From contig JAFZAH010000032.1 of assembly GCA_017548275.1 (NCBI GenBank), positions 1 to 57,936 of the forward strand: a stretch of DNA of 57,936 nt, written 5' to 3'. Shown here piece by piece: positions 26,794-51,317 of this stretch; the stretch's first letter is position 1, and every line of letters begins with the position of its first letter. The DNA is from Prevotella sp. (GTDB lineage: Bacteria; Bacteroidota; Bacteroidia; Bacteroidales; Bacteroidaceae). Both the position numbers and the translations under genes were made by a program. The notes under the pieces are model-generated. The model had not been told where the DNA came from. It ran no database searches and was given only the letters and a program-made list of their open reading frames with translations.

Positions 26794-26824
26794 TTTGACA
26801 AATCACTTTTTTTGCTTATATTTG
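26794..26824 (+). promoter_or_regulatory. Consensus promoter at the head of the large array
   Basis: TTTG at 26794-26797, exactly 19 bp, then TATATTTG at 26817-26824. It faces the paralogue array. Expected transcription start is about 26831, giving a leader that includes the remnant paralogue at 26878-27050. Confidence 0.7.
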
Positions 26825-26877
26825 CAAATCTATTACCCATACCCCTAAATCACATCTCTATTTCCGGAATAAAGCCT

Positions 26878-27050
26878 ATGGACCGCAATTTAATCGCTTT
26901 TTTATTTTGTATAATATCTTTTCTGCTTACAAAGACAAGAGGCAGACTGTTGCTGTTTTGTCTGGTATTGCTGATGCCTGAAATGGCTACGACTCGTTCG
27001 AGGCCCTCTGCCGTGACCATGCCGCCACCATGATGGCGATAGGAAGTTAA
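26878..27050 (+). pseudogene. Collapsed fifth large paralogue
   Basis: From ATG 26878 a frame starts MDRNLIAFLFCIISFLLTK and continues RGRLLLFCLVLLMP, which resembles a signal sequence. At about 26983 the frame changes. Bases 26985-27050 then read GYDSFEALCRDHAATMMAIGS and stop, matching the last 21 residues of paralogues A and D (GYDSFED/AVCRDHAATITAIGS). The sequence after the stop (AGTGCCTCACAAAGCCTCACC) also matches that after paralogues A and D. So almost the entire body of a paralogue has been deleted, leaving its tail out of frame. Confidence 0.75.
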
Positions 27051-27063
27051 AGTGCCTCACAAA

Positions 27064-27172
27064 GCCTCACCAGCCTCACCCCCAGTCCCTCTCCAAGGGG
27101 AGAGGGGAGTGGTTACAAAATAGACTGTTAAACCTCAAATCTCAAACCTCAAACCTAACTCAAACCTCATAA
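27064..27172. repeat. REP family 1 followed by CTCAAA heptamer array
   Basis: REP element 27064-27112, then a shared GTGGTTACAAAATAGA segment and the heptamers CCTCAAA, TCTCAAA, CCTCAAA. The same compound unit follows A (31247-31343) and D (46150-46275). Confidence 0.75.
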
Positions 27173-27183
27173 TCTCACGACAT

Positions 27184-30100
27184 ATGAATAATCACGTAAC
27201 CTATCGAAGGAAAACCATCCGACTGTTCCTTTTCAGCGTCGCTGTGCTGATGCCTCTTTTGCTGTCGGCACAAGACCATGACGAGTATGGCTGGAGAACG
27301 AGCAACACGACGGTAATGGGGTATTATGCCGGTGGCAAAAAGTCTGAAACACTGACCAGCAAGGCGCGCGACCCGAAGTCGAACCTGACCTATACCATCA
27401 GTTATGACTATGTGGTCGAGGGGGGCAGGATGGAGCAGATTAAGAGAGAACTCCCCGGTTCGCATTACTGGAAACATAATGTTCATACGGTCGGATTCAG
27501 GGGAAAAGTGAAAAAAGGCGCGCGGGTGCGTTTCTATATGTCGATGTTTGGCGGGTCAGGCACGCTCTGTCCAAAATATTACTCCAAACGCATCACCTTC
27601 ACGCCACGCAAATTGAGGTGTTATGAATTAGGAGGCGAATACCGGGAGGAAGTAACGACACTCACCCGCGAACAGGTTATCAAGGATGTGCCTCTTTCCC
27701 AATCGCCCGTCCTTGACACCACGTACACGGTAAAAGAGGAAGGCATGTATATGTTCTCCATTGCCGGAGGCGGTATGTGGGACGGAAACAAAAAGACCGA
27801 AAAACCGTTTGATTATTACCCGGGCATTCCCACCTTCAACGTGGTGGTGTATCTGTTGGTCGAAGGCGAAGAACTTGGAGCGACATCAACAGGTGCCGAA
27901 GTGGTGCCCGAACCCAAGGCTACCCCTGTGGATGACAATGTCGGTGCTCATTATGAGGAGGACAACGATGCATGGAATTTCGACGGCATGTGGCCCTTCG
28001 CCATCCCGGCGAGCGTCATTGCCGCCATCGTCGGTTATGGACTTACGCGTCGCAAGGGCGATAGTGACGAATCCCGGCAAGAACAGTCCGGCCGATGCGA
28101 GATGCATATTTACAAGGATTTCGGCAACACGCTGATGGTGGGCGACATGCCCCGGCAGGTATATGCCAAGATTGTCCGCAAAGATGCCCGCGGTGGTGTG
28201 TCAAACGACCCTGCGCTAACCTCTCTGATACAGATTACATCGGGCGACGACTATCTGCAGGTGGCCGACGGCGGCATGCAGGGCGAGTGGCGCACGGCTT
28301 GGGTCGGCGCACCTGAGACAGCCAATGCGCCCGAGGAGGGCATCGTCACGTTCCGCATGGGCAACGAGGGCGGCAGTTACACCAACCGCCTGCATTTCCT
28401 TATCGAGGCGGGTGAGGTCATCTTCGGCCAGCCCAACCTGACGCTGCCGGCGCACTACGAGAAGGAAGCCCGTCTGCCGTTCGTGGTGACGGGCATCGAG
28501 CAGGGAGCGCCCGTCATGGCCACCATCACTGACTCTTCGGGCAACACCACGTCCAACTACAGCGTCGTGACAGAGTGGAACGAGAAGGAGCAGTTGTACT
28601 ATGCCGTCATCCGCGACCGCGTGCTGGACAAGGAGAAGGACAAGGGCGTGCCGGGCAAATACCTCACTTTCAAACTTAAAGTCGAGGCGATGAGCCGCAG
28701 CGGGAAACCCATCTTGGGCGAATTGTACCTCTACCGCTACTATATGGGTCTGGTGCTTGAGATCTTCGGCGGCAACGATGTGAAGTGCTTCATCGAGGAG
28801 TACGACGTAATGAAACACCGTACGAAGAAGTTCGCCGCTGAGTCCGGCGGTAAGTGGTACGTTCCCGCCGAGACGAAGTGCAAACTGACGCTTTTCGACT
28901 ACGACGAGGCGGAGAACCGCATCCTTCAACTGGCTCCCATCCCGAAGGAGTTCAAGGTCAAGGCACAGGATGAGAACAAGCAGTACCTGGCCGACAAGGT
29001 GTTCGTCCAAATCGATGTGACCTCATGCAAGCCTGGCGACGGCACCTACGGCGTGTTGCGCTGCACGAAGGCGGTGCTTGACGCACCTAACCGCGTGGAG
29101 GGCGTTGCCGTGTGCAGCGTGATGCAAGGCGAGAAGAAAATCACTTTGGAGCAGAACGTGCGGCTGTGCTCACAGCCCCGGCGCGACTTCGCCGACAACT
29201 TCGTGATGGACGCCGCGCTGAAGGACGACAACCGCATCACCGACCAGTTGTTCCACATCCGCTCCGAGATTTACCGCAACAAACTGGTCGACAACCTGTT
29301 CCCGTTGGTGAAATACATCGACATGGTGATAGACGGCTATGACCCCGACTTCGGCTATGACAAGAAGACGCTGAAGACCATCACGCGGACGTACAACGAC
29401 GTTTTTACCGGTGTGAAAGCAGGTGCTAATGCCGAGGGGGCAAAGCCTCTGACGCTGGCCGACGACATGCTGCTGTTCATCCAGAGTTGGTACGAGACGG
29501 CGAAGACCACGTCGCAGGACCTCGGCCTCTGCGGCCGCCTGTTCTTAGGCTTCGCCACGCTTGGCTGCTCAGAGATAGTGTTCGGCACCGTCGACACCAT
29601 CGCCATCGGCGAGGAGATATACACGGGCATGAAGAACTACGTTGACCAGGGCGGCGACAGCATCTGGGGCGGTTTCGTCGTGGGTGCGAAGGTGGTTGCC
29701 CGCGAGTACATCATGTCGAAGGTGATGGAGGGCGGCATGAAGGCCATCGGCGCCACGGCGAGGGCAGCGGGTCTGACACCTGAGAAGATGAAGGAAGCAA
29801 TGGGTAAATTGAGCGCGAATCTGAAAAAGCCGTTCTCCACGTCCACGAAGGGTGCTCCCGTCAAGGCCGCCGGCCAGCGCAACAGCATCAGCCGCGCCAA
29901 TTCGAAGGCCAGGGTGAAGGCAAAAGTCGAAGCCAACAAGAGGGGTGTCATTCCCGACAACACCAAGAAGCCCGCAATTCCCGATAACACCAAGAAGCCC
30001 GCAATTGCTGACAACACCAAGAAGCCTGCAATTGCTGATAACACCAAGAAGCCCGCAATTGCTGACAACACCAAGAAGCCCGCAATCGCTGATAACACCA

Positions 30101-31230
30101 AGAAACCTACAATTGCCGATACCACCAGCACCACTGGTAAGCAGGGCAAGGCCGATCTTAGTAAGACCGACCTGGGAGACGCTACGAATCTGGGCAATGC
30201 ACGTGCCAAGCAGAATGTGAACGACCTTCGTGCGGCGTGCGAGCAGTACCGTGCCAACCCCACGCCCGAGAACAAGGCTTTGCGCGACAAACTCATCCTG
30301 AAGTGCCAGGGCGACAAGCAGTCGATGTACTTGTTGAAGGAGAAGGGCGACGCCTTCACCTCCACGCGCAAGGATTTTAACGGACATCTGGAAGACATCT
30401 ACAAGAACACCGACACGAAGGTGAAGGCCGAACTGTCGGCCAAACTCGGCGGCAAGCAAGTCCGCACGAAGAACGTGTCGTCGAAGACGCGCACGGATCT
30501 GAAAGAGGGCAAGACGGTCACCATGGACCGCGACACCACTTACCAGTACCTCGACGACGACGGCGTATGGAAGACCATCGATGATAAGACGTTAGGCGAG
30601 GGTACGGAGAAGATGGTGGAGCAGACGTACAACCGCCATTTCCACGAGCAGTCCACGGGCATCAAGCCCAAGACCGAGCCGGGGGTGGATCTGAAGCCTC
30701 TGGAGCAGAAACTGGCCGACAAGCATGCGAAGAAGATGGACCAGACCATCATCCAGAATGAGTTGACCAACCGTGAGAGTTACGGCAAGGATGTCGATAT
30801 GATGCTCGACAAGAGCCGTCACGGCGAGCGTATGCAGGATGCCCGTCAGGTGGGCAAGGCTGTGGAGAACAAGGGAACGGAGCGATTCGAAGACGCGCGC
30901 AAGATGCTCAATGAGGCAGATGCGATGACCGACCCGACGGAAAAGTTGAACAAGCAGGCCGATGCCATCGGCGAAGTGCGTGAAGGCTGTCGTCAGGAGG
31001 TGAAAATCATGGATCAGTTCACCGACTCGATGGACATCGCGCGTGCCGGCGAGAACGGCGGCAGCAGAATCTCAGACAAGTTGCGCGACGGCATTGAAAT
31101 CATGCGCATGTGCGAGGAGGGCACGCTGCCCGTCGACCAGGCCGAGGCCAACCTCCGCAACATCGGCTATGACTCGTTCGAGGACGTCTGCCGCGACCAT
31201 GCCGCCACCATTACGGCGATAGGAAGTTAA
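27184..31230 (+). CDS. Large paralogue A: signal peptide, ectodomain, TM, beta-rich region, conserved C-terminal domain (1348 aa)
   Basis: Not a family I recognise. Order: signal peptide (1-29, ending L-S-A|Q); ectodomain (~30-262), unlike those of B and D; acidic juxtamembrane GAHYEEDNDAWNFDG; TM helix (~270-287; WPFAIPASVIAAIVGYGL) followed by TRRK, which predicts that the rest is cytoplasmic; a beta-rich, Ig-like-looking region (~300-660); a helical region (~668-870) with a hydrophobic segment (LCGRLFLGFATLGCSEIVFG, ~782); a Lys/Ala linker with a 9-aa tandem repeat (~922-979); and a C-terminal domain (~1013-1348) conserved in B, C and D. It is first in the array. Cytoplasmic Ig-like domains would be unusual, so the topology deserves checking. 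Confidence 0.85.
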   Translation: MNNHVTYRRKTIRLFLFSVAVLMPLLLSAQDHDEYGWRTSNTTVMGYYAGGKKSETLTSKARDPKSNLTYTISYDYVVEGGRMEQIKRELPGSHYWKHNVHTVGFRGKVKKGARVRFYMSMFGGSGTLCPKYYSKRITFTPRKLRCYELGGEYREEVTTLTREQVIKDVPLSQSPVLDTTYTVKEEGMYMFSIAGGGMWDGNKKTEKPFDYYPGIPTFNVVVYLLVEGEELGATSTGAEVVPEPKATPVDDNVGAHYEEDNDAWNFDGMWPFAIPASVIAAIVGYGLTRRKGDSDESRQEQSGRCEMHIYKDFGNTLMVGDMPRQVYAKIVRKDARGGVSNDPALTSLIQITSGDDYLQVADGGMQGEWRTAWVGAPETANAPEEGIVTFRMGNEGGSYTNRLHFLIEAGEVIFGQPNLTLPAHYEKEARLPFVVTGIEQGAPVMATITDSSGNTTSNYSVVTEWNEKEQLYYAVIRDRVLDKEKDKGVPGKYLTFKLKVEAMSRSGKPILGELYLYRYYMGLVLEIFGGNDVKCFIEEYDVMKHRTKKFAAESGGKWYVPAETKCKLTLFDYDEAENRILQLAPIPKEFKVKAQDENKQYLADKVFVQIDVTSCKPGDGTYGVLRCTKAVLDAPNRVEGVAVCSVMQGEKKITLEQNVRLCSQPRRDFADNFVMDAALKDDNRITDQLFHIRSEIYRNKLVDNLFPLVKYIDMVIDGYDPDFGYDKKTLKTITRTYNDVFTGVKAGANAEGAKPLTLADDMLLFIQSWYETAKTTSQDLGLCGRLFLGFATLGCSEIVFGTVDTIAIGEEIYTGMKNYVDQGGDSIWGGFVVGAKVVAREYIMSKVMEGGMKAIGATARAAGLTPEKMKEAMGKLSANLKKPFSTSTKGAPVKAAGQRNSISRANSKARVKAKVEANKRGVIPDNTKKPAIPDNTKKPAIADNTKKPAIADNTKKPAIADNTKKPAIADNTKKPTIADTTSTTGKQGKADLSKTDLGDATNLGNARAKQNVNDLRAACEQYRANPTPENKALRDKLILKCQGDKQSMYLLKEKGDAFTSTRKDFNGHLEDIYKNTDTKVKAELSAKLGGKQVRTKNVSSKTRTDLKEGKTVTMDRDTTYQYLDDDGVWKTIDDKTLGEGTEKMVEQTYNRHFHEQSTGIKPKTEPGVDLKPLEQKLADKHAKKMDQTIIQNELTNRESYGKDVDMMLDKSRHGERMQDARQVGKAVENKGTERFEDARKMLNEADAMTDPTEKLNKQADAIGEVREGCRQEVKIMDQFTDSMDIARAGENGGSRISDKLRDGIEIMRMCEEGTLPVDQAEANLRNIGYDSFEDVCRDHAATITAIGS
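29944..30121 (+). repeat. 27-bp in-frame tandem repeat in paralogue A
   Basis: About six copies encode I(A/P)DNTKKPA in the linker just before the C-terminal domain. Paralogues B, C and D lack it. Being a multiple of three, copy number can change without breaking the frame. Confidence 0.9.
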
Positions 31231-31246
31231 AAGCCCACTTACAAAG

Positions 31247-31343
31247 CCTCACCAGCCTCACCCCCAGCCCCTCTCCGAGGGGAGAGGGGAGTGGTTACAA
31301 AATAGATTGTTAAATCTCAAACCTCAAATCTCAAATCTCAAAC
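31247..31343. repeat. REP family 1 plus CTCAAA heptamers after paralogue A
   Basis: Nearly identical to 27064-27172: REP palindrome, GTGGTTACAAAATAGATTGT, then TCTCAAA and CCTCAAA heptamers ending at the next start codon. Confidence 0.8.
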
Positions 31344-31345
31344 CA

Positions 31346-32098
31346 ATGAATAACCATCCAACAACACCGCCCCCCTATCATCCACAACAAAATGGCGGTC
31401 ATCCACAACAGTTCCCCGGCTATGGACCCAATGGCCCTAATGGCGGTTACGGCCCCAATACGGCTTATTCGGCTCAGCCCAATCAGCCTTACCAGAGTCA
31501 GAACATCCAGTATTGCCCCGATGGTAAGTACCGGTGGGTTTATGAAATGCACATGATGAAAAACCCCGTGCTGATGATAACCGTCTATAAGGCTTTCGGG
31601 CTGACCTTCATCATCGTATGGGCGATTATGGCGTTGATCGGTCTTTTCAGCGGCGACGGACTGGATTTTATTTGGCCCACGACCAAGGTGCTGCTCATCG
31701 TCATCGCCATCTTTGTGCCGCTCATCTTCATCGCCTTCCTCATTGTGGCGGCCATCAACGGGTGGAAATATGTCGTGCTCTTCGAGATGGACGATTACGG
31801 AGTGCTCCACCGGCAGATGCAAAAGCAGTTGAAGAAAGCGAAAGCCATCGGCTGGCTCGCTGTCATCGCAGGAATCGTCGGAGGCAACCGCGGTGCGGTC
31901 AGCGCAGGCTTTGTGGCTGCCACCAAGGAGGAGTCTTATTCCGATTTCAGCGCAGTGAGGTCGGTGAAAGCCAAGCGCGGTTTCAGCACCATCAAGGTTA
32001 ATGAAATGCTCAACCATAATCAGGTCTATGCCGCCAAAGAAGACTTCGACTTCGTCTATCAGTTTATCCTCTCACACTGCCCGAAAGTGAAGAAATGA
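31346..32098 (+). CDS. Two-helix membrane protein with YRWVYEM signature, 250 aa
   Basis: The start at 31346 avoids codons that lie in the heptamer array. Residues 1-~55 are disordered and rich in Pro, Gln, Gly and Tyr. The signature YCPDGKYRWVYEMHMMKNP follows, then TM1 (~85-108; FGLTFIIVWAIMALIGLF) and TM2 (~120-142), and a cytoplasmic C-terminal region of ~110 residues (KYVVLFEMDDYGVLHRQM, then ...YSDFSAVRSVKAKRG, QVYAAKEDFDFVYQFI) that looks like a small beta domain such as a PH-like fold. A close paralogue is fused into 41046-42047. The protein is probably a membrane partner of the large paralogues. Confidence 0.8.
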   Translation: MNNHPTTPPPYHPQQNGGHPQQFPGYGPNGPNGGYGPNTAYSAQPNQPYQSQNIQYCPDGKYRWVYEMHMMKNPVLMITVYKAFGLTFIIVWAIMALIGLFSGDGLDFIWPTTKVLLIVIAIFVPLIFIAFLIVAAINGWKYVVLFEMDDYGVLHRQMQKQLKKAKAIGWLAVIAGIVGGNRGAVSAGFVAATKEESYSDFSAVRSVKAKRGFSTIKVNEMLNHNQVYAAKEDFDFVYQFILSHCPKVKK

Positions 32099-32102
32099 AT
32101 TC

Positions 32103-32232
32103 GGAAGTTAAAGAATTAAAGGAGTTAAAGGACAATAGTCCAAACTCTCCATATCCTTTCATGTATCGTTCAGATAGAGAAAATGTAATGTCCTTTAACT
32201 TCCCGAGCGAAGCGATAACTCTTTTAACTCCA
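32103..32232. repeat. Inverted repeat with GGAGTTAAAG subunits
   Basis: GGAAGTTAAAG...GGAGTTAAAGGACA (32103-32134) is complementary to TGTCCTTTAACTTCC...TTTTAACTCC (32189-32232). It is related to the element at 16130-16268 and fills most of the gap before paralogue B. AGATAGAGAAA also occurs twice (near 32173 and 32300). Confidence 0.65.
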
Positions 32233-32318: not shown

Positions 32319-35300
32319 ATGATGCAATACAATCCACACCACCACTGTAGCCTGTGGGGTCGTGCAACCGGCCTCTTGCTCCTGCTTCTCCTTGTAGCCC
32401 AATGGGCGCAAGCGCAAATCAGCGGTACGGCCACGACCTACGCATGGTATGTCAGGAAACAGTATGATGGCAACATCGAGTTGAAGACCTATGGCGGATG
32501 GAGTTACTCCGTCAAAGGGGTGTCGAGCGTCAAAATGACGAAAGATGATAAGACTGGAGGTGATGCCGGCGGCTGGGGGGCATGGAATGTGAAGCGTGAG
32601 TACCATGCCAAAGTGAAGGCAGGAGAGACCATTACCATCACCGTGAAATGCACGGGTATCAGGGGCGACGAATGTGAAGAACCGAAAGTGCAAGTCGGTG
32701 TCATGTCTGACTGGAGGGGTAACTACTCCAATGATAACGCACCCTGCAAAGGCGTTGAAGAGAATCGTGGACCGGCCACCGCAACCATCTCTTATACCGT
32801 AGAACGCGACAGGGAATACGGAGAGAATGACATCCTACATCTGAATTTGTATGGACACATGGGTGGAAGCGGTTCTGGCTCACACTCATTTAATAAGCCA
32901 CTAGGAGCAGGGGCGCTGACGGTGGATGTCTATCTGAGTGTCATCAATGTGGATAAAGCGACACTCACACACAAAGAGGAAGAGGTGGAGGCTGACGTGC
33001 CCACCACACGCCCCGACAGCGATGATGTGGGTGCCCACTATGAGGAGGATACCGAGGCGTGGAACTTCGGTGGTCCATGGGCGTTTGTGCTCCCGGCGAG
33101 TGTCGTGGCAGCCATCTTAGGTTACACCTATACCCGGCGCAAGGAGGGTGAAAAGAATCAAGAACAGCAGGAGCAGCCTCCCGTTTGTTCGATGCAGATA
33201 TACAAGGATTTCGGCAACACACTGCTAGTGGGTGACATGCCCCGTCAGGTGTATGCGAGGATGATGCGCAAGGACTCGAAGGGCGGCGAGCGCCCCGACC
33301 CGATGCTGACGCAGATGATACAAATCACCAGCGGCGACAATTATCTGCAAGTGGCCGACGGTGGCATGCAGGGCGAGTGGCGTATGGCTTGGGTCGGCGC
33401 GCCCGAGACCGACAACGCGCCCGAGGAGGGCATCGTTAACTTCTTCATGGGCAACAAGGGCGGCAGTTACACCAACCGCCTGCATTTCCACGTTGAAGGA
33501 GGCGAGGTGCTCTTCGCCCAGGAGAATCTCACGCTGCCCGCACACCACGAGAAAGAGGTGCGTCTGCCGTTCGTGGTGACAGGCATCGAGGGCGACGCCC
33601 CCGTCACTGCCACCATCACCGACTCCTCGGGCCGCGCCACGTCCAACTACAGTGTCGAGACAGAGTGGAACGAGAAGGAGCGGTTGTATTACGCCGTCAT
33701 CCGCGACCGCGTGTTGGACAAGGAGAAAGACAAGGGCGTTCCGGGCAAATACCTCACTTACAGACTCAATATCGAGACGAAGAGCCGCAGCGGACGCCCC
33801 GTCACGGGCGGCCTGTACGTCTACCGCTACTACATGGGGCTTCTGTTCGAGATATTCAACGGCAACGACGTGAAGTGCTTCATCGAGGAGTATGACATTA
33901 CGAAGCACCACTCGAAGAAGTTCGCGGCCGAGTCGGGCGGCAAGTGGTATGTCCCCGCCGAGACGAAGTGCAAGCTGACGCTGTTCGACTACGACGAGAC
34001 GAACTACCGCCTCCTTCAGCTGGCTCCTATACCGAAGGAGTTCAGCGTCAAGGCACAGGACGAGAGCAAGCAGTACCTTGCCGACAAGGTGTTCGTGCAG
34101 ATCGAGGTGACGGGCTGCAACCCCGGCGACGGCACCTACGGCATCCTGCGCTGCACGAAAGCGGTGCTCGACGCGCCCAACCGTGTGGCTGGCGTGGCGA
34201 GGTTCAGCGTGATGAATGGCGAGAAGAAGATTACCCTGGAGCAGAATGTGCGCCTGTGCTCGCAGCCGCGCCGCGACTTCGCCGACAACTTCGTGATGGA
34301 TGCCGCGCTGAAGGATGACAACCGCATCACCGACCAGTTGTTCCACATCCGTTCCGAGATATACCGCAACCAACTGGTTGACAATCTCTTCCCGCTGCTG
34401 AAATACATCGACATGGTCATCGACGGCTACGACCCTGACTTCGGCTACGACAAGAAGACGTTGAAGACCATCACGCATACCTACAACGACGTGTTCACAG
34501 GCGTGAAAGCCGGTGCCAACGCCGAGGCGGCGAAACCGCTGACCCTGGCCGACGATATGCTGCTGTTCATCCAGAGTTGGTACGAGACGGCGAAGACGAC
34601 GTCGCAGAACCTCGGTCTTTGCGGCCGCCTGTTCCTGGGCTTCGCCACGCTGGGCTGCTCCGAGATCGTGTTCGGTGCGGTGGATACCATCTCGATTGGC
34701 GAGGAGATCTACACCAACATGAAGACCTACGTGGACCAGGGCGGCGACAGCATCTGGGGCGGTTTTGTCGTAGGAGCGAAGGTGGCCGCGCGCGAGTACA
34801 TCATGTCGAAGGTGATGGAGGGCGGCATGAAGGCCATCGGAGCCACGGCGAAGGCGGCGGGTCTGACCCCCGACAAGATGAAAGAAGCGTTGGGCAAGTT
34901 GAATGCGAAATTGAAGAAGCCGTTTGCCACGCCCTCGAAGGGCGCTCCCATCAAGGCCGCCGGCAACCGCAGCAGCATCAGCCGCGCCAATGCGAAGTCC
35001 AGGGCCAAGGCCGCCGCCGGAAAATCCGGAGCCACCGGCACTACTGGCAAGCAAGGAAAGACCAACCTGAACGATGCCACGAACCTGGGCAAGCAGCGTG
35101 CCAAGCAGAACGTGAACGACCTGCGCGCGGCATGTGAGCAGTACCGCGCCAATCCTACGCCCGAGAACAAGGCGTTGCGTGACAAGCTCATCCTGAAGTG
35201 CCAGGCCGACAAGCAGACGATGTTCCTGCTGAAGGAGAAGGGCGATGCCTTCACCGCCACGCGCAAGGACTTCAACCGCCATCTGGACGACATCTACAAG

Positions 35301-37232: not shown

Positions 37233-37249
37233 ACGACAAACACTACTAT

Positions 37250-41014: not shown

Positions 41015-41045
41015 CTTCGACCGTTACCATTGACCATTGACTATT

Positions 41046-42296: not shown

Positions 42297-45200
42297 ATGA
42301 GATACTATCAATACCATCATTACATCTGGAGAAGAAACGTCGTCGTCATGTTCCTTCTTTGTGTCGTCGCACAGTGGTCTCAAGCGCAAATCAGTGGGTC
42401 GGCGTCAACTTATGAATGGCTTAAGGGAGACAATATGATGAAAACATCCGCAGAATGGAGCTACTCAGTGACAAAGTTGACTGACATTGAGATGAATAAA
42501 GATACATGCATTCGTGCTGGTTCTGACTACAATGGATATATTGTAATCATACGGAACTATCATGCCAAAGTGAAATCTGGGGAAAATGTCACAGTAACGT
42601 TGCGTTGTGATGGCATTTCCGGCGACGAGGCTGTATGTGATGAGGTGAGTCTGTGGGTGGGTACGCTTGGTTCTTATCGGGTTTATCTTAGAAGGGACTC
42701 TGACCAAGAGTTTAAAGGTGAGAGAAAAAAGGAGAAGCGCGGGCCGGCCACGCTCACCTGTTCTTTTAATGTTAAGTGTTCTGAAAGTGCTAATGATGCC
42801 CACTTTCGTATTGAAATGAAAGGAGAAATGGACTCCTCTCATGGCACAGGCCCATTTGGCCAAGTTGTAAAACCTGATGGGGTCGGATGGCTTGAAGTTC
42901 GTATTGACGTGGATGTCATCAATAGTGAACAACCGCATGAGTCTGAGACCGCCGTCATCCCTACTGATACTACCGTCATTATCGCCGACACCGACAACCA
43001 CGTCATAGAGGACACCGATGCTTGGACATTCGACGGTGTGTGGCCCATCGCCATCCCTGCGAGCGTGATAGCGGCTTTGGCGGGCTTCTTGATTTCACGC
43101 CGCAAAAAGCCTACGTCATCACAAGGCGATAAGCAGCAACAGCAGCCTGAAGACAACTCCCCCTGCGAGTTGCACATCTACAAGGGTTTCGGCGATACGC
43201 TGCTCGTGGGCAATGCACCCCAGCAGGTGTTCGCCAAGATCGTGCGCAAGACATCGCAGGGAGAGCGCACCGACCCCGCACTCACGCAGATGATACAGAT
43301 CACCTCGGGCGACGGCTATGTGGAGGTACACGACGGCGGCATGCACGGCGAGTGGCGCACGGCATGGGTGTCGGCTCCCGAGACCGGTTCGCCCCCGCCC
43401 GCAGAGGGTATCGTCACGTTCCGCATGGGCAACGAGGACGGCAGTTACACCAACCGTGTCCACTTCCGCATCGAGGCGGGCGAGGTAATCTTCGGACAGG
43501 ACAACCTCACATTGCCTGCTCATTATCAGAAAGAGGTGCGACTGCCGTTCTTGGTGACAGGCTTGGAGGGCAATGCCGAGGTGACGGCGAAAATCACCGA
43601 CGGCAGCGGGCAGAAAACCGCCAACTACAGCGTGCGCGTGGAGTGGAACGCGAAGGAGCAGCTGCACTATGCCGTCATCCACGACTGTGTGCTCGACCCC
43701 GCACAAGACAAGGGCGTTCCCGGTCATTTCCTCTGCTATGCGCTCGAGGTGGAGGCGAAGAGCCCCGCGGGGCAGATCATCAACGGCCGTCTCGAACTCT
43801 ACCGCTACTATATGGGCCTGATTCTCGACGTGGGCGACATCCAGTGCTACATCGAGGAGTTCTCGCCCCTGAACCACCGCACGGACAAGTTCGCCTCCGT
43901 CAGGAATGGCAAGAAGTACGTGCCGTCGGAGACACGCGCCAAACTGACGCTCTTCGACTACGACGAGGCGCAGAACCGCATTCTTCAAATAGCACCCATC
44001 CCCACAGAATTCATCATACGGACCAATGACGCCGACAGCCAGTACCTGGCCGACAACATCGCCGTGAAGATGGAGGTGACCGACTGCCGTCCCGGCGATG
44101 CCACCTGCTGCCGTCTGCGCTGCACGAAGGCAGTGCTTGACGCGCCCAACCGCGTGGCTGCCACGGTGACCATCAGCGTGATGAACGGCGAGAAGAAAGT
44201 GACCGCCACGCAGAACATCCGCCTCAGTTCGCAGCCCATACGGCAGTTCGCCAGCAACGATGCCATGGCTGCCGCGCTGAAGAACGACGAGCGGCTCACA
44301 GGTCAACTGGAGCGGATACGCTCGGAGATATATCGTCATCGGTTGGTTGACAACCTCTTCCCGTTGGTGAAATACATCGACACAATGCTCGACAGTTACG
44401 ACCCTGACTACGGTTATGACCCGAAAGCGTTGCATACCATCGTGCAAACCTACAATGATGTCTATTCGGGCGAGAAGGCGGGTGCGATGGAGGACCTGCC
44501 CGAGCCGCTGACTTTGGCCGACGACGTGAAGGAATTTGTCAAGTCGTGGTACGAGACGACGAAGACCACATCGAGGGATTTGGGCTTTTGCGGACGCCTG
44601 TTCGTTGGCTTCGCCACGTTGGGCTGCTCTGAGGTAGTGTTCGGCACGGTCGATACCATCTCTGTGGGCGAGGAGATTTACACAGGCATGAAGAACTATG
44701 TCGATCAAGGCGGCAACAGTGTATGGGAGGGCTTTGTCGTCGGTGCGAAGGTGGCCACACGCGAATATCTCATGTCTAAGGCAATGAGAGCAGGCTTGAA
44801 AGTGGCGGGTGCCGGATTGAAAGTGGCTGGCGCCGGACTGAAAAAGGCCGGACTGTCGCGCGAGGGCATGGCAAAACTGTTCAATAAGGTAAACAGGAAA
44901 ACCGATAAACCCTATTCCACCCGTGCTAAGGGTGCGCCGGTGAAAGCCGCCGCTAAAAACAGCCAGTTCCGTCAGGCGAACGCAAAGGTGCAGGCAAAGG
45001 CACAGGCTGCTAATGTCAAACCCGCACAACCCGTCACCCCAGGAGCAACTGGTAAATCCGGAGCCTCTTCCTTCTCAGGAAAGGCCAACATGAACGAGGC
45101 CGCCCGGTTGGCCAAGGCTCGCGCCAATCAGAACGTGAACGACCTGCGCGCCGCTTGTGAGATGTACCGCGCCAACCCCACGCCTACGAACAAGATTATG

Positions 45201-46148
45201 CGCGACAAACTCATCATGAAGTGTCAGTCTGATAAACATTCGATGTATCTGCTTAAGGAAAAAGGTGACGCCTTCACCTCCACGCGCAAGGATTTCAACG
45301 GACATCTGAATGAAATATATAAGAGCACCGACATACAGGTGGGGAAAGAATTGTCGCAACAACTCGGTGGTAAGAAAGTGCGTACGAAGAGCATCTCTTC
45401 GAAGCAACCCACGGACCTGAAAGAGGGCAGGACCGTGACCATGGACCGCGACACCACCTACGAATACCTTGACACCGACGGCGTATGGAAGACCATCGAC
45501 GACAAGACCTTTGGCGATGGAACAGAGAAAATGGTGGAGCAGACCTACAACCGTCATTTCCACGAACTGGCGACGGGTATCAAACCTAAGACCGAGGCTG
45601 GCGTCGATTTGAAGCCATTAGAGCAGAAACTGGCTGACAAGTATGGCAAGAAGATGGATCAGACCATCGTCCAAAACGAGTTGACACACCGCGAGAGTTA
45701 CGGGCGCGACGTGAACATGATGATGAACAAGAATCGCCATGGCGAGCGTATGCAGGATGCCCGTCAGGTGGGCAAAGCGGTGGAAAATAAGGGCACGGAG
45801 CGTTTCGATGACGCGCGTAAGATGCTCAACGAAGCGGATTCGATGACCGACCCGAATGCGAAACTCAACAAGCAGGCTGATGCCATCGGCGAGATTCGCG
45901 AGGGTTGCCGTCAGGAGGTGAAGATCATGGACCAGTTCACCGACTCTATGGACATCGCGCGTGCCGGTGAGAACGGCGGCAGCAGAATCTCCGACAAGTT
46001 GCGCGACGCCATAGAAATTATGCGTATGTGCTCGGAAGGCACACTGCCCGTGGACCAGGCTGAGGCCAATCTCCGCCTGATCGGCTATGACTCGTTCGAG
46101 GCCGTCTGCCGCGACCACGCCGCGACTATCACAGCGATAGGAAGTTAA
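42297..46148 (+). CDS. Large paralogue D (1283 aa)
   Basis: The start at 42297 (MRYYQYHHYIWRRN) corresponds to those of C and of the chimera; longer frames to 42156 overlap the promoter. Signal peptide ends A-Q-A|Q (~31). Ectodomain ~32-235 begins ISGSASTYEWLKG, followed by IEDTDAWTFDG. TM is ~249-268 (WPIAIPASVIAALAGFLI) then SRRKK. The beta-rich and helical regions follow A and B with more differences, and there is an extra KVAGAGLK duplication near residue 840. The C-terminal domain is nearly identical to that of A. It lies 250 bp after the chimera and precedes zinc-ribbon protein 2 and the signalling genes. Confidence 0.85.
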   Translation: MRYYQYHHYIWRRNVVVMFLLCVVAQWSQAQISGSASTYEWLKGDNMMKTSAEWSYSVTKLTDIEMNKDTCIRAGSDYNGYIVIIRNYHAKVKSGENVTVTLRCDGISGDEAVCDEVSLWVGTLGSYRVYLRRDSDQEFKGERKKEKRGPATLTCSFNVKCSESANDAHFRIEMKGEMDSSHGTGPFGQVVKPDGVGWLEVRIDVDVINSEQPHESETAVIPTDTTVIIADTDNHVIEDTDAWTFDGVWPIAIPASVIAALAGFLISRRKKPTSSQGDKQQQQPEDNSPCELHIYKGFGDTLLVGNAPQQVFAKIVRKTSQGERTDPALTQMIQITSGDGYVEVHDGGMHGEWRTAWVSAPETGSPPPAEGIVTFRMGNEDGSYTNRVHFRIEAGEVIFGQDNLTLPAHYQKEVRLPFLVTGLEGNAEVTAKITDGSGQKTANYSVRVEWNAKEQLHYAVIHDCVLDPAQDKGVPGHFLCYALEVEAKSPAGQIINGRLELYRYYMGLILDVGDIQCYIEEFSPLNHRTDKFASVRNGKKYVPSETRAKLTLFDYDEAQNRILQIAPIPTEFIIRTNDADSQYLADNIAVKMEVTDCRPGDATCCRLRCTKAVLDAPNRVAATVTISVMNGEKKVTATQNIRLSSQPIRQFASNDAMAAALKNDERLTGQLERIRSEIYRHRLVDNLFPLVKYIDTMLDSYDPDYGYDPKALHTIVQTYNDVYSGEKAGAMEDLPEPLTLADDVKEFVKSWYETTKTTSRDLGFCGRLFVGFATLGCSEVVFGTVDTISVGEEIYTGMKNYVDQGGNSVWEGFVVGAKVATREYLMSKAMRAGLKVAGAGLKVAGAGLKKAGLSREGMAKLFNKVNRKTDKPYSTRAKGAPVKAAAKNSQFRQANAKVQAKAQAANVKPAQPVTPGATGKSGASSFSGKANMNEAARLAKARANQNVNDLRAACEMYRANPTPTNKIMRDKLIMKCQSDKHSMYLLKEKGDAFTSTRKDFNGHLNEIYKSTDIQVGKELSQQLGGKKVRTKSISSKQPTDLKEGRTVTMDRDTTYEYLDTDGVWKTIDDKTFGDGTEKMVEQTYNRHFHELATGIKPKTEAGVDLKPLEQKLADKYGKKMDQTIVQNELTHRESYGRDVNMMMNKNRHGERMQDARQVGKAVENKGTERFDDARKMLNEADSMTDPNAKLNKQADAIGEIREGCRQEVKIMDQFTDSMDIARAGENGGSRISDKLRDAIEIMRMCSEGTLPVDQAEANLRLIGYDSFEAVCRDHAATITAIGS

Positions 46149-46149
46149 A

Positions 46150-46275
46150 AGTGCCTCACAAGGCCTCACCCCCAACCCCTCATCTCCAGCCTCACCCCCC
46201 AGCCCCTCTCCGAGGGGAGAGGGGAGTGGTTACAAAATAGATTGGTAAATCTCAAACCTCAAACCTCAAAAATAT
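46150..46275. repeat. REP family 1 plus CTCAAA heptamers after paralogue D
   Basis: Same compound unit as at 27064 and 31247, with an extra partial REP copy in front. It ends directly before zinc-ribbon protein 2. Confidence 0.8.
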
Positions 46276-46276
46276 T

Positions 46277-47116
46277 ATGGCTTATTGTTTTCAATGTGGA
46301 AAGATGCTGCCCCCGGGAGCCATCGTGTGTAACTTCTGCGGAGCACAACAGGTACCCGGCAACATGATACCACCACATGCACCTCAACAACCCGCACCAC
46401 AGCGTCCCGTACATCCCCCGCAGCCTCAGATGCCGCCTCAACAGCCTGCTCCCCAACCGGCACCTCCCCCACAGCCCCAGATGCCCCCTCAGCAACCCGT
46501 TGCCCCTCAACCGGCACCTCCCCCTCAGCCTCAGATGCCTCCTCAGCAGTCTGCTCCCCAACCGGTATCGCCCTCACAGCCGATGCCCCCTCAGCAGCCT
46601 GCTCCACATCAGGCACCACCTCCACAGCCGATGCCCCCTCAGCAGCCTGCTCCCCAACCGGCACCGCCCTCACAGCCTCAGATGCCGCCTCAACAGCCTG
46701 CTCCACATCAGGCACCACCTCCACAGCCGATGCCCCCTCAGCAGTCTGCTCCCCAACCGGTATCGCCCTCACAGCCGATGCCCCCTCAGCAGCCAGTTGC
46801 TCCACAAATGGCACCGCCTCAGCAACCCGTTGCTCCTCAACCGGCATCCCCCCCACAGTCTGCTAATGATTCCCTCCCTTCGGGAGGTTCAGGGTGGGTT
46901 CCCCCTCTGGGCAGTTTAGGCGGCATAGATGTGATGGCGACGGATGCCAAGGGCTTGTTTGTCTTGTCCGAATTCCAGTTGCCCGCGAACATGTCATCGG
47001 CAGCGCAGATGGGCATGTCGGCATTGCAAACCGCCACGAAAGGGAAGTATGCCTGGGCGTGGTTCCTCATTCCTGCGGTCACTATTCTCGCTTTTTTGAT
47101 AGACAAGATTACATAA
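46277..47116 (+). CDS. Zinc-ribbon, proline-rich, tail-anchored protein 2 (279 aa)
   Basis: N-terminal zinc ribbon (C4-x2-C7 and C18-x2-C21 in MAYCFQCGKMLPPGAIVCNF), then about 165 residues of Pro/Gln/Ala repeats (PQMPPQQPAPQ-like units). Next come residues encoded by a REP-like element (SLPSGGSGWVPP), the motif GGIDVMATDAKGLFVLSEFQ, and one TM helix at the very C-terminus (YAWAWFLIPAVTILAFLI, then DKIT). Without the acidic tail of protein 1 it is a tail-anchored protein with the ribbon in the cytoplasm. The shared ribbon, motif and TM show a common origin with protein 1. It is 84 bp upstream of the SpoIIE-type gene. Confidence 0.82.
   Translation: MAYCFQCGKMLPPGAIVCNFCGAQQVPGNMIPPHAPQQPAPQRPVHPPQPQMPPQQPAPQPAPPPQPQMPPQQPVAPQPAPPPQPQMPPQQSAPQPVSPSQPMPPQQPAPHQAPPPQPMPPQQPAPQPAPPSQPQMPPQQPAPHQAPPPQPMPPQQSAPQPVSPSQPMPPQQPVAPQMAPPQQPVAPQPASPPQSANDSLPSGGSGWVPPLGSLGGIDVMATDAKGLFVLSEFQLPANMSSAAQMGMSALQTATKGKYAWAWFLIPAVTILAFLIDKIT
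46378..46850 (+). repeat. Proline-rich coding tandem repeats in zinc-ribbon protein 2
   Basis: Imperfect, in-frame units such as CAGCCTGCTCCCCAACCGGC and ATGCCCCCTCAGCAG recur many times, some in identical larger blocks (about 46560-46630 and 46690-46780). Slippage or recombination should change the number of Pro/Gln units. Confidence 0.8.
46871..46900. repeat. REP-like element, family 2, inside a coding region
   Basis: TCCCTCCCTTCGGGAGG then TTCAGGGTGGGTT, read in frame as SLPSGGSGWV. Copies outside genes are at 16281 and 19021. Confidence 0.75.
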
Positions 47117-47118
47117 CC

Positions 47119-47160
47119 GCCACCTGCATAAGATTCAGAATCAATAGAACACACCTATAA
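47119..47160. repeat. Fragment of a possible miniature element
   Basis: CACCTGCATAAGATTCAGAA then TCAATAGAACACACCTATAA. Its reverse complement closely matches 53804-53848, the left end of an inverted-repeat element. It lies between zinc-ribbon protein 2 and the SpoIIE gene. Confidence 0.55.
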
Positions 47161-47199
47161 TTGAATGACAGAATCCGCCAGTCATCACACTGGCAATAG

Positions 47200-49182
47200 A
47201 TGCCGATGATAGAAGAACCGAATTTTGACTATCAGTATAACCTGGCCTTCCGGAAATCTTTCGCCGCCAGGCTTACCTTCTCTATCTTGCTTATAGCGAC
47301 AGGGGTCTTCCTTGTTGCCGCCTTGATTTATCTCTACGTCACCGAGGATTCAGTGAAACAAGAAACGGCACAAAAAGCGAAAATGGCTCTCCACGACGCC
47401 GTGGCCACGATGCGGGTGAAGGCCATGGAGGCTCAATTGCAGCAGCGCCAGATGACCACAGCCGAATATGTGGCTATTTTGGAAACGGTGAAGCCCTATG
47501 AGCATTCATTCACCGTGATGATGGACCAGGAAGGAAAGTGGGTACATATCGGCAACGCCTCCATCCTCAAAGATTCCGCAGCGGAGCAAAAGAAAATGAA
47601 GGCGGCGATGATGAGCGGAAAATCATCTATGGAGGTGGTGGAGAACGATTCAAAGAAATCGCTGCTTATCTATGAACCTGTCGAGGGGAGTCCCTATGTG
47701 GCAGGAGTCATCTGTTCCCGTATCGATATTCTCATGGGGTACCGCTCCCTGCTGTTTTATGCCGTCTTCTTCTTCATTCTCGGACTTGTCGTCCTCTCTT
47801 CGTTCTGCGCCTTTGCCATCATACGCATGGTAAAACCGCTCAACCATTTTGCCGAGTCGGCAAGAAGCATAGCAGGCGGAAACCTTGACACGGCATTGCC
47901 GGAGATACGCTCGAAAGATGAGTTGGGACTGCTGCGCGACTCATTCGAATATATGCAGTCGTCGCTGAAAGAGCATATCAAGGAACTGCAGCAGACCACG
48001 GCCAAGAAAGAGCACATGGAAAGCGAACTGACCATTGCCCACAATATCCAGATGAGCATGATTTCTGCCGATTTCCCAGTGCGTAAAGACGTGGACCTTT
48101 TCGCTTCGCTCACTCCCGCACGAGAGGTCGGTGGCGATTTGTACGACTTTATCATCGATGGCGACGAGTTGTTCTTTGTGATAGGCGACGTGGCAGGCAA
48201 AGGTGTGCCCGCATCATTGTTTATGGCCACCACAAGGTCGCTCTTCAGACATCTGGCGGGCAACTACCAGAGTGCTGCGAATATCGTGCGCGAAATCAAC
48301 CATACTATTGCCAGTTCCAACGGAGCCTTCGTCTTCGTCACCATGTTCGTGGGGGTGCTCGACCTGAGAAATCATCTCCTCACATACTGTAACGCCGGAC
48401 ACAACCCACCCGTGTTGTTGCCTGATGAAGGACCATGCCGGCTGCTCGAAGTCATGCCGCAGGTGCCCGTGGGCATCATCGACCATTACCAATATGAGGA
48501 GCAGCAGATGGATTTCCCACCGGGTACGGCGTTATTGCTCTATACAGATGGTCTGACCGAAGCGGAGAACACTTCTCAGGCGATGTTTGGCGAGCAGCGC
48601 CTCATGGCGGCAGTGGAGGAAAACCGGCAGATGGGCGCCACTGACATCATTCGTTTCCTGACGGATTGTGTAGGTGAATATGCCGGTGGTATGGAACAAA
48701 GCGACGACCTCACCATGCTGTTTTTCAGACATCTCGCTGAGGACAGACCCCGGCCTGCCACACGGCATATTGTCATGAAAAACGAATTACGGGAGATAGA
48801 GCGTTTACACGGTTTCGTCTCGTCGGTATGTCAGGAGTTTGACGCCGACCCCTCCTTCCGCAACGATGTGGATTTGGCATTGGAAGAAGTGGTGGTCAAT
48901 GTCATCAATTACGCCTATCCGAGGCAGCGACGCGGACATATAGAGGTGACGACATGGGGCGACGACGGCTGCTTGTGCCTCAGTGTGAAAGATAGCGGTG
49001 TGCCTTTCGACCCCACTTCGGCCGGCGAGGTCAATGTGGATGTGCCGTTAGAGGAACGTGCCATTGGCGGGCTGGGCATACATCTGGTGCGCCAGTTGAT
49101 GGATGAACTTTCTTATGAGCGAACCGCCGACGGGTATAATGTCTTGACGATGAAGAAACGAATAGCGGATACTGACAATTAA
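47200..49182 (+). CDS. HAMP - SpoIIE-type PP2C phosphatase - HATPase (RsbW-like) sensor protein, 660 aa
   Basis: TM1 (~24-47), an extracytoplasmic sensor segment (~48-182; FTVMMDQEGKWVHIG suggests a Cache-like fold), TM2 (~183-207), HAMP (~208-262), a coiled linker (~262-290), a SpoIIE/PP2C domain (~295-500) with metal-binding motifs GGDLYDF (~311) and GDVAGKG (~329), CNAGHNPP and DGLTEAEN, then an anti-sigma-type HATPase (~535-650) with N-box DLALEEVVVNVINYAY (~558) and GGLGIHLVRQLMD. In partner switching such proteins dephosphorylate a STAS protein, and HATPase kinases phosphorylate it. Here both activities appear in one protein, with the STAS gene two genes downstream. It is 32 bp before the permease gene. 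Confidence 0.9.
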   Translation: MPMIEEPNFDYQYNLAFRKSFAARLTFSILLIATGVFLVAALIYLYVTEDSVKQETAQKAKMALHDAVATMRVKAMEAQLQQRQMTTAEYVAILETVKPYEHSFTVMMDQEGKWVHIGNASILKDSAAEQKKMKAAMMSGKSSMEVVENDSKKSLLIYEPVEGSPYVAGVICSRIDILMGYRSLLFYAVFFFILGLVVLSSFCAFAIIRMVKPLNHFAESARSIAGGNLDTALPEIRSKDELGLLRDSFEYMQSSLKEHIKELQQTTAKKEHMESELTIAHNIQMSMISADFPVRKDVDLFASLTPAREVGGDLYDFIIDGDELFFVIGDVAGKGVPASLFMATTRSLFRHLAGNYQSAANIVREINHTIASSNGAFVFVTMFVGVLDLRNHLLTYCNAGHNPPVLLPDEGPCRLLEVMPQVPVGIIDHYQYEEQQMDFPPGTALLLYTDGLTEAENTSQAMFGEQRLMAAVEENRQMGATDIIRFLTDCVGEYAGGMEQSDDLTMLFFRHLAEDRPRPATRHIVMKNELREIERLHGFVSSVCQEFDADPSFRNDVDLALEEVVVNVINYAYPRQRRGHIEVTTWGDDGCLCLSVKDSGVPFDPTSAGEVNVDVPLEERAIGGLGIHLVRQLMDELSYERTADGYNVLTMKKRIADTDN

Positions 49183-49213
49183 TTCAACTCCAACATCATA
49201 AAAACTGAATTAT

Positions 49214-51013
49214 ATGGAAGACGTCATTTTTTTAGGATTTAATCTCCATGCATGGATTACTATTATCACGGTACTCGCCATGTTTACCGTGTTGTTATTT
49301 ACCAAACTGCGCTCTGACGTAGTCTTTCTCGCTGCCATCGCCATCCTTTTTGTGACAGGCGTGCTTGATGCGAAGGAGGCGTTCTCCGGCTTCAGTTCCA
49401 CCTCGGTGGTCATCATCGGTGTGCTTTTCGTCGTCGTGGCGGGATTGACCTATACGGGTGTGCTGCAGTGGATTGTCAAACATCTCTTGGGACAACCGAA
49501 GACATACTCCAGCACGGTGGTGCGCTTGATGCTGCCGGTGGCAGGTCTCAGTTCGGTGCTCAGCAACACCACGGTGGTGGCCCTCTTCGTAGGCATTGTC
49601 AAGATGTGGTCGAAGAAATTGGGTATCTCGCCTTCCAAACTGCTGATACCCCTGAGTTATGCTTCGGGCATGGGCGGTGTGTGTACGCTCATCGGTACCC
49701 CTCCCAACCTGATTATTTCGGGTTTGTATGCCGATAAGACGGGCACAACGATGAATGTGCTGGCTACGATGTTGCCCGGACTGTTCTGTCTCTTTATCGG
49801 AGTGCTCTCCATCATCGCTATGCGCAAGTTGCTCCCTGACCGCAAGGCTCCTGAGGCAGCCTTTGAGGCCGCTTCAGACTATACCGTCGAACTGTTGGTG
49901 CCCACGGACAATGAGCATGTGGGACAGACGGTGGCGGAAGCGGGATTAGACCATGTCAAAGGCGGCAGCCTGATTGAACTGGTGCGTTTCGACCAGGAGG
50001 TCATCTCGCCCGTCCCTGCCGATGAGTTTATCATGGGTGGCGACAGATTGGTGTTTGCGGGACAGATCGACGAGATGTTGGATGTGAAAAAGACCCACGG
50101 CTTTGTCAATGCCGACCATCATGTGTTTACCACTGACGAGGTGGAAGGCAACAGGCAGTTACGCACAGCCTACGTCACTTTCGGCAGCAGTCTCATCGGT
50201 ACGACGATTGGAGGGAGCGACTTCGAGCAAAAGAACAACATGACGCTCGTCGCTGTGGCGCGCAGAGGGAAGCGCATCGAGCAGTCGCCGCGCGAAGTGG
50301 TGCTGCAGGCGGGTGATACTCTTTTGTGGGAGTGTCCGCCGAAACTCAAGGTCAATACCGACGAGCTGAAAGCCCGGTTGCAGTTCTTTGATTCCGAGGA
50401 ATTGCCCAATATCAGCAAGAAGACCATGGTCTCGACCCTTATCATGGTGGCTATGGTCGTGCTATCCGCGCTCAACGTTATCCCCTTGTTGCAATGCGCG
50501 TTCTTGGCTGCCATCGCCATGATTATTACCAATTGCTGTAATGTTGACCAGGCGATGAAGAGCATCAACGGCAGCATACTGATGGTCTTTGCGGGGTCGG
50601 TGGTGCTCGGACTGGCTATCCAGAAGACGGGCATTGCCGAGCGTTTGGCTTTCGGCATCTTGGAGGTGTGCGGCGACAATCCGCTGCTGGTCATGGCGGC
50701 CGTATGCTTTGTGGGCACCTTTATCACCGAGTTTATCAGCAACACGGCGGCTGGCGCCATGTTCTTCCCCATCATGTACGAGGCAGCCATTAAAATGGGC
50801 TATGAGCCATATACGTTCCTTATCGCGCTGATGATTTCCGTCAGCAGCAGTTTCGCCACGCCCATCGGCTCACCCACACACATGTTGGTCTATGGTCCGG
50901 GCGGATACCGTTTCAGCGACTTTATCCGCATCGGTTTCTGGATGAACCTCATCATCCTTGCAGCCAACCTGCTTATCACGAATATCATTTACCCATTAAC
51001 TCCTTTACAGTAA
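49214..51013 (+). CDS. SLC13/DASS-type permease with two RCK_C (TrkA_C) domains, 599 aa
   Basis: Membrane halves (~10-210 and ~400-599) flank two cytoplasmic RCK_C domains (~223-290 and ~319-378). Transport motifs are SNTTVVALFVGIVK and IGTPPNLIISG in the first half and SNTAAGAMFFPI and ATPIGSPTHMLVYGPGGY in the second, typical of sodium/anion or dicarboxylate/sulfate symporters. RCK_C domains usually bind a ligand and gate transport. Its place between the SpoIIE-type sensor and the STAS protein, with gaps of 31 and 1 bp, shows co-translation and suggests that it is controlled by, or feeds, that signalling pair. Substrate unknown. Confidence 0.9.
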   Translation: MEDVIFLGFNLHAWITIITVLAMFTVLLFTKLRSDVVFLAAIAILFVTGVLDAKEAFSGFSSTSVVIIGVLFVVVAGLTYTGVLQWIVKHLLGQPKTYSSTVVRLMLPVAGLSSVLSNTTVVALFVGIVKMWSKKLGISPSKLLIPLSYASGMGGVCTLIGTPPNLIISGLYADKTGTTMNVLATMLPGLFCLFIGVLSIIAMRKLLPDRKAPEAAFEAASDYTVELLVPTDNEHVGQTVAEAGLDHVKGGSLIELVRFDQEVISPVPADEFIMGGDRLVFAGQIDEMLDVKKTHGFVNADHHVFTTDEVEGNRQLRTAYVTFGSSLIGTTIGGSDFEQKNNMTLVAVARRGKRIEQSPREVVLQAGDTLLWECPPKLKVNTDELKARLQFFDSEELPNISKKTMVSTLIMVAMVVLSALNVIPLLQCAFLAAIAMIITNCCNVDQAMKSINGSILMVFAGSVVLGLAIQKTGIAERLAFGILEVCGDNPLLVMAAVCFVGTFITEFISNTAAGAMFFPIMYEAAIKMGYEPYTFLIALMISVSSSFATPIGSPTHMLVYGPGGYRFSDFIRIGFWMNLIILAANLLITNIIYPLTPLQ

Positions 51014-51014
51014 G

Positions 51015-51317
51015 ATGAATATACAGATTTTGAACGAAAACGGTGTGTATACAGGCGTTTTGGATGGACGTCTGGACACGAATGCCGTGGCGGATTTCGC
51101 AAAAGACATCCAACCCCTGTTAGAACATGCCGACCAGCATATTATCCTCGACTGCTCGAAGTTGGAGTATATCGCAAGTTCCGGGCTGCGCATATTCCTG
51201 TTGTTGCGAAAGGAAAGTGCCGAAAAAGGCGGAAAAGTGACGCTCGTCAACGTTTCCGGGGATGTGCAGAAAGTATTTAAGATGGTCGGATTCTATTCGC
51301 TATTTGAAATCCTGTAG
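51015..51317 (+). CDS. STAS-domain anti-sigma factor antagonist, 100 aa
   Basis: A single STAS domain: LDGRLDTNAVADFAKDI, HIILDCSKLEYIASSGLRIF and then LLLRKESAEKGGKVTLVNV. The Ser of IASSGLRI (~residue 56-57) is the position phosphorylated in SpoIIAA/RsbV proteins. It starts one base after the permease stop. Together with the 660-aa protein it makes a complete switch (phosphatase, kinase-type HATPase and substrate). No sigma factor gene is in the window. Confidence 0.9.
   Translation: MNIQILNENGVYTGVLDGRLDTNAVADFAKDIQPLLEHADQHIILDCSKLEYIASSGLRIFLLLRKESAEKGGKVTLVNVSGDVQKVFKMVGFYSLFEIL

Follow-up and report, generated by a model that had tools for sequence, protein, structure and literature searches.

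What kind of membrane system is encoded on contig JAFZAH010000032.1 of a Prevotella sp. (assembly GCA_017548275.1; 3.22 Mb in 56 contigs, 87% complete), where genes for four very large paralogous proteins alternate with genes for small membrane proteins? The window analyzed here, 57,936 nucleotides, is this entire contig (C32), and its core array consists of four giants (A-D, 1,254-1,348 aa), two two-helix proteins (TH) and two zinc-ribbon proteins (ZR). Gene calls and family scans bore out the gene order, the strand and the families given in an initial annotation of this DNA, which had also stated that no described system has this gene content; none is indeed named in Pfam, NCBIfam, PADLOC-DB, the structure databases or the literature searched. 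The system is new in gene content and in family, a statement that makes no claim to a shown function, and in what we say on families and their association, taken alone, we have high confidence. If it is true, a multi-gene membrane system missed by the family libraries searched is shared between gut Bacteroidaceae and at least one Clostridia genome, and the split between a fast-changing outer and a constant inner part, together with remnants and between-genome mosaics, makes it a testable case of envelope recognition diversification.

The giants A (27184..31230, 1348 aa), B (32319..36125, 1268 aa; the reference for residue numbers), C (37250..41014, 1254 aa) and D (42297..46148, 1283 aa), all on the plus strand as are the other genes and features of the region 26794..51317, repeat each other in register, for example in 300-nt stretches at 70-89% identity. 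The C-terminal domains (CT) of A, B and D are 81-87% identical at the protein level, that of C, a diverged paralogue, is at 32-34%, and D is A/B-like in this domain and less so in the remainder, whereas the ectodomains of the four are only 21-38% identical. Ectodomain types are nevertheless kept across genomes: that of B is 75% identical to the one in the third giant of locus L029 and that of A 54% identical to the one in the first, and the ectodomains of C and D are 100% and 99% identical to those of L030. An alignment of 22 giants (A2) shows a leader, a variable stretch of about 200 residues and a transmembrane segment (TM) with K/R-rich sequence behind it; from the TM onward the sequences are conserved throughout. 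This layout agrees with the shared leader, single TM with basic flank and conserved C-terminal domain noted initially. K and R are more numerous on the C side of the TM than on the N side in 21 of the 22 (exception L035:9750), and these charges would put the C side inside the cell. In A the leader and the variable ectodomain are followed by the TM at about residue 272, an immunoglobulin (Ig)-like region (assigned via alignment to B), a helical region, a linker of 9-aa repeats and the CT. The repeats of A read PAIADNTKK (window 29934-30154); the linkers of L039 and L046 carry in the same place a different repeat of similar length.

Residues 284-872 of B were folded, giving a model (mean predicted local distance difference test score, pLDDT, 70.8) with beta-sandwich domains at residues 7-364 of the model (good confidence) and then helices at low confidence. 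The sandwich part of the model is read as three predicted Ig-like domains; Foldseek matched the sandwiches to many kinds of Ig-like domain, with E values down to 3e-10 (titin Ig), and by this test the middle region of the giants is a predicted array of tandem Ig-like beta-sandwiches. Two Cys of the Ig region are conserved in 21 of 22 giants each, but are lost in different proteins, and 3-7 further Cys vary; the lack of a stable Cys pair fits a reducing compartment.

The CT, the last 354 residues of B (915-1268), was modeled with a pLDDT of 84.8 and a predicted TM-score (pTM) of 0.79 and is chiefly helix with a small sheet; Foldseek of the model against PDB and BFVD returned no significant match. 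Among the aligned Bacteroidota members, sister genomes included and the Clostridia giant (see below) kept apart, G1029, D1035, D1037, D1106, G1121 and K1150 (B numbering) are invariant in 32 of 32 rows, E1187 and K1194 in 31 of 31 and R1207 in 30 of 30. Nucleotidyltransferases of the pol-beta type follow the rule GS...DxD plus a third carboxylate; a serine-rich stretch about 13 residues before the DRD of the CT, plus D1106, is suggestive of this type, and Foldseek of the CT model gave no match under E 0.9.

Pfam at curated cut-offs has no family for the window giants, NCBIfam has none for A and C at E 0.1 or for B and D at E 0.01, and no solved structure is related by sequence to the giants (A as query; profiles). 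When the 22 aligned giants were compared with Pfam at E 0.5, no family matched in more than three; zinc-ribbon families match two of them, as many as there are A2 rows that begin with a fused ribbon. The initial annotation had counted a match of the giants to a well-characterized family as an argument against itself; Pfam, NCBIfam and the solved structures gave none.

The small proteins ZR1 (36324..37232, 302 aa, ending 17 bp before C) and ZR2 (46277..47116, 279 aa) are built of N-terminal CxxC pairs, a Pro-rich linker and a TM, which in ZR2 is C-terminal; across the ZR proteins the tail is variable. In ZR2 the linker is Pro/Gln-rich and is encoded by repeats at about 48-nt spacing (window 46396-46842). 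The CxxC...CxxC pattern, intact in both, is that of Zn_Ribbon_1 (PF13240), but ZR1 and ZR2 score 21.7 and 20.5 bits, below the curated cut-off of 25; the ZR proteins scanned from L035, L038, L043 and L162 pass it, and the ZR-TH protein of the Clostridia cluster (22.5) fails. This domain is short and common and names no system: zinc ribbons as such occur in 133 of 201 genomes and are not specific, and all 10 giant-bearing genomes carry them (median 8 matches). The ZR tail of L043 is a TonB_C domain, with which L042 aligns.

What ties these proteins to the giants is position. The 5' side is visible in 32 of the 36 giants or pieces listed (giant C of the window being counted by its ZR1 gene call), and half of these, 16, have a ZR either immediately upstream or fused: 12 have a ZR gene upstream and four a fused ribbon (L039, L044, L047, L048), while one has a ribbon-less ZR relative (L034) and 15 have neither. 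Since sister genomes are included (L042/L043, L038/L040, L039/L046 and L035/L164 among others), the number of events is smaller than these counts. A gene for a single-TM zinc-ribbon protein upstream of a partner gene is also described for the two-gene Lipocone systems in parts of PMC12419801, to which we compare the giants by gene layout only.

The other small proteins, TH1 (31346..32098, 250 aa) and TH2 (41325..42047, 240 aa from a conserved internal ATG), have two TMs and a conserved tail; the family occurs also in other genomes and in a Clostridia record, and in L033, L036 and further relatives a single protein combines zinc ribbon and TH. The initial annotation took TH2 for a chimera. It is most likely, judging by its relatives, a normal TH gene that has its start at ATG 41325 and is preceded by the in-frame remains of a giant's 5' end (41046..41324, repeat family D14), in which 129 nt at 41045-41173 are 78% identical to the start of D: the TH proteins of L029 and L031 begin at the same MNNQPY as TH2, and that of L030 is without the leader.

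Giants were found by protein query in 10 of 201 genomes of the family and by profile in 15 of 399, one of them weak (14 strong); in a phylum-wide draw they appeared in 2 of 395, namely the genome of the window itself and the weak case already mentioned. TH occurs in 18 of the 201 family genomes (one weak, dropped) and phylum-wide in 1 of 395, again the own genome. Nine of the 10 giant-bearing genomes have TH, as against 8 of the 191 others (Fisher p 2e-10, not corrected for kinship), and once the weak TH match is dropped giants and TH fall in the same five of 30 genera. Six of the named loci, obtained by a pattern scan, stand for five uncultured genomes classified as Prevotellaceae, Bacteroidaceae or Prevotella. 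The association of giants, TH and ZR that had been claimed is thereby supported, from the gene neighborhoods through the genome counts to a Clostridia cluster with all three. The initial annotation had also named the finding of the families apart from one another as an argument against itself; this is half true, as TH stands in 8 giant-less genomes and zinc ribbons alone are common, yet giants, TH and ZR go together. The searches made in viral_contigs and phages returned no relatives, and those in plasmids one record only (L183, NZ_CP154629.1), which is filed as a plasmid in PLSDB and is probably a chromosome, given its size of 2.6 Mb.

TH1 as query matched a protein of Acetoanaerobium noterae (Clostridia) with 41% identity (E 4e-35). 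Encoded in the cluster there are a ZR-TH protein, a protein of 142 aa that has two hydrophobic segments, another of 366 aa whose zinc ribbon is C-terminal and, 16 bp after the gene of the latter, a 1576-aa giant with six hydrophobic segments by hydropathy. The C-terminal half of this giant matches the giant profile over three stretches (E 7e-31, 2e-13 and 4e-8) from profile position 678 onward. Where this giant aligns, DRD is represented by DKD, and the D of KKMDHT, the K of EYK, and both E and K of EGVRQMVK are retained; the serine-rich stretch that precedes DRD is unaligned. Since the match is limited to the C-terminal half, the helical part and the CT are the constant core, with the front varying still more between phyla than within one. 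By this one Clostridia record, which is the cross-phylum evidence, the gene set exists in another phylum too and has the look of an undescribed system, not of an isolated case.

In the window the giants, together with a SpoIIE-permease-STAS triad downstream of them, lie between lysS and pabB. In genome G824, too, the array is flanked by lysS and pabB/menD; in G825 lysS is followed by a giant that reaches the end of the contig. The DNA upstream of lysS was compared in seven stretches of the same genus (L155-L161): in six (L156-L161) pabB and menD lie a few genes off with no giant between, and L155 is without pabB on its 7.2 kb. A ROK gene is found in the lysS-pabB interval of L157, the one case tested. 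In both G824 and G825 a GH115 glycosidase gene adjoins lysS, between it and the giant array (L199:942-3557 and L201:306-2768, both on the minus strand). With the GH115 genes and the ROK gene, the spot seems to accept varied genes.

Comparison of the arrays showed a patchwork. L030 (G825) matches the window at 99.1% identity along 3854 nt (the end of ZR1 and C), at 97% along TH2 and at 90% along the start of D, but is 82% identical to B; the B-like giant of L030 and the third giant of L029 share 96.8% identity. The CT of D is 86% identical to that of A, and the piece L031, the likely orthologue of D on the assumption that it continues the D of L030, is 71% identical to D in the CT and 85% in the helical part. 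Upstream of A we found a remnant that the initial annotation had missed (26985..27156; repeat families D10 and D11), composed of a further giant's 3' end (26985-27052, 90% identical to the 3' end of A) and of the spacer that follows it (27056-27156). The 3' remnant before A and the 5' remnant before TH2 indicate that further giants were once present, and at 78-90% identity to intact copies the remnants are not simple copies of them. As far as such comparisons go, the array is a recombination mosaic in which the ectodomains stay distinct and the cytoplasmic parts are homogenized; these are draft assemblies of repeats, and some joins may be assembly errors.

For the function of the system as a whole we tentatively favor the view that the giants are membrane receptors whose input can be exchanged and whose cytoplasmic output is shared, served by ZR and TH as scaffolds. 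A giant would sit in the inner membrane with one TM and its C side inside the cell; its ectodomain would bind a ligand of the envelope or from outside, and the signal would be relayed across the single TM. ZR and TH would hold the cytoplasmic parts of the giants in a sub-membrane complex, perhaps as YdjG, YdjH and YdjI do with PspA, a receptor-like giant replacing PspA. Ligand binding would change the CT, which would be the effector and possibly catalytic, given its invariant charged set, and several paralogues could feed different inputs into one output. A sensing or signaling role had been proposed in the initial annotation and is still something we infer; the part of that proposal on families and association was borne out, the part on the triad was not.

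Several points weigh against the receptor view. The topology of the giants is read from charges and hydropathy, and arrays of Ig-like domains more often lie outside the cell. The helical part has no confident fold (pLDDT below 50 from residue 445 of the B 284-872 model), and without a significant Foldseek match for the CT the word catalytic stands for conserved charges. As to the partners, the 15 of 32 giants without a ZR-type gene directly upstream count here, as do the 8 genomes with TH and no detected giant, two of which (G063, G127) are 97-98% complete; in 6 of the 9 genomes of the 201-genome draw with both, TH is on a different contig from the giants, and the co-occurrence statistics take no account of relatedness. 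A more far-reaching version, which we consider improbable, would be a cross-phylum receptor system with hypervariable, exchangeable ectodomains, a constant cytoplasmic machine whose last part is a novel enzyme domain (invariant DxD, D, K, E, K, R), ZR/TH adaptors, and recombining arrays that renew the recognition of phages, competitors or host factors.

Somewhat unlikely, in our estimate, is an envelope-stress or envelope-organizing scaffold, in which giants would join ZR and TH in a hub beneath the membrane, like that of YdjG, YdjH and YdjI for PspA, and would be structural tethers rather than receptors. Arrays of Ig-like domains, as matched in the giants, are common tethers, and the ZR protein of L043 ends, as mentioned, in TonB_C. 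In YdjFGHI of Bacillus subtilis and in Psp neighborhoods, as described in parts of PMC11237479 and PMC8581546, zinc-ribbon and TM proteins gather a complex at the membrane beside a larger partner. The ZR proteins are zinc-ribbon TM proteins of this kind, even with ZR1 and ZR2 below the Pfam cut-off, but the array has as its large partner a TM protein whose ectodomain varies and whose CT is without known relative. No PspA (IM30 family) or SPFH domain was found among the window proteins scanned against Pfam or in the four Clostridia proteins scanned, and the patchy occurrence (14 strong cases in 399 genomes) and the strong variety of the ectodomains are unsuited to housekeeping.

We likewise regard it as unlikely that the giants are membrane-tethered effectors of a conflict system aimed at competitors or phages, in which the outer part would vary for recognition and the CT inside would be a shared domain for killing or growth arrest. 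The patchy occurrence, the arrays, the remnants and the mosaic exchange between genomes would suit such a system, as would presence or absence at the lysS-pabB site and companion proteins of varying kind. Polymorphic toxins, too, are very large modular proteins with recombination between copies, but the parts of PMC3482391 that describe them give them diverse C-terminal toxin domains; the giants are the reverse, their CT being conserved and their N-terminal part variable. The small neighbors of the giants differ between loci, and no Pfam family named for immunity was found among the proteins scanned. PADLOC-DB 2023 was applied to seven proteins (B, TH1, ZR1, the Clostridia giant, its 366-aa and 142-aa neighbors, and the 300-aa protein after STAS) and matched ZR1 alone, weakly (PD-T4-6, E 2e-5), over TM and polar linker. 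This result speaks against a conflict system, as does the lack of relatives in the viral and phage searches and of any plasmid record other than the one of 2.6 Mb.

Opposite topology, with the Ig-like region and the CT outside the inner membrane, would make the giants surface adhesins or an S-layer-like coat. This we hold to be quite improbable: it is at odds with the K/R-rich flank after the TM in 21 of 22 giants and with the lack of a stable Cys pair, and in four giants a zinc ribbon is fused before the first hydrophobic segment, which suits an N-inside start.

There remains the triad, which comprises HAMP-SpoIIE-HATPase (47200..49182), a CitMHS/TrkA_C permease (49214..51013) and STAS (51015..51317), and which the initial annotation had joined to giants, TH and ZR in one signaling pathway. 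Its members are ordinary families (SpoIIE with E 4e-50) as in partner-switching SpoIIE/STAS modules (PF07228, PF01740), here with a transporter in the middle. It shares the strand of the array, and the gap between ZR2 and SpoIIE is 83 bp without a terminator-like call; yet this gap contains a promoter-like site (47134-47161, 10/12). The same-genus stretches L151, L152 and L154 have the triad and no giant on the 7-13 kb fetched, and L153 has SpoIIE and STAS without the permease and no giant on the stretch fetched, giants elsewhere in these genomes not having been searched for. The array of G824 at the lysS-pabB site is fully visible and without the triad; the G825 contig breaks off within a giant, and two other contigs of that genome carry SpoIIE-permease pairs. 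Giants are thus not constantly associated with SpoIIE/STAS, the triad looks like a bystander, a separate conserved neighbor outside the array, and a single pathway of all these genes is most improbable.

SpoIIE-type phosphatase genes are much expanded in some same-genus genomes (e.g. G810, G817, G816), with up to 30 matches to the SpoIIE of the window in one. After STAS the window encodes a lipoprotein-like 300-aa protein (51590-52492) without family match in scans of Pfam, NCBIfam and PADLOC-DB. Beside the giant of L035 lies a gene (L035:14264-15088, minus strand) for a lipoprotein-like protein with an FGE-sulfatase domain (PF03781, E 1e-36), for which the nearest NCBIfam entry is GldK, below cut-off; a lipoprotein-like protein beside another giant (L163:4063-4923, minus strand) resembles it by sequence. 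In G759 a 761-aa protein (L162:4876-7161, minus strand) has a leader, ectodomain, TM and helical part without matching the giant profile; it is encoded near a giant, TH and three zinc-ribbon proteins and is possibly a second giant class.

Upstream of giant A there is a promoter-like site, TTTG-N19-TATATTTG (26794..26824), recognized by consensus match only; TTGACA-16-TATATT, also a consensus match, is noted as well. The consensus TTTG-N19-TATATTTG, which we take to be of the Bacteroidota type, has six matches in the window against 0.94 expected, and the one at 26794-26824 is the sole match between 13.6 kb and 54.0 kb. This site probably set the start coordinate of the region in the initial annotation.

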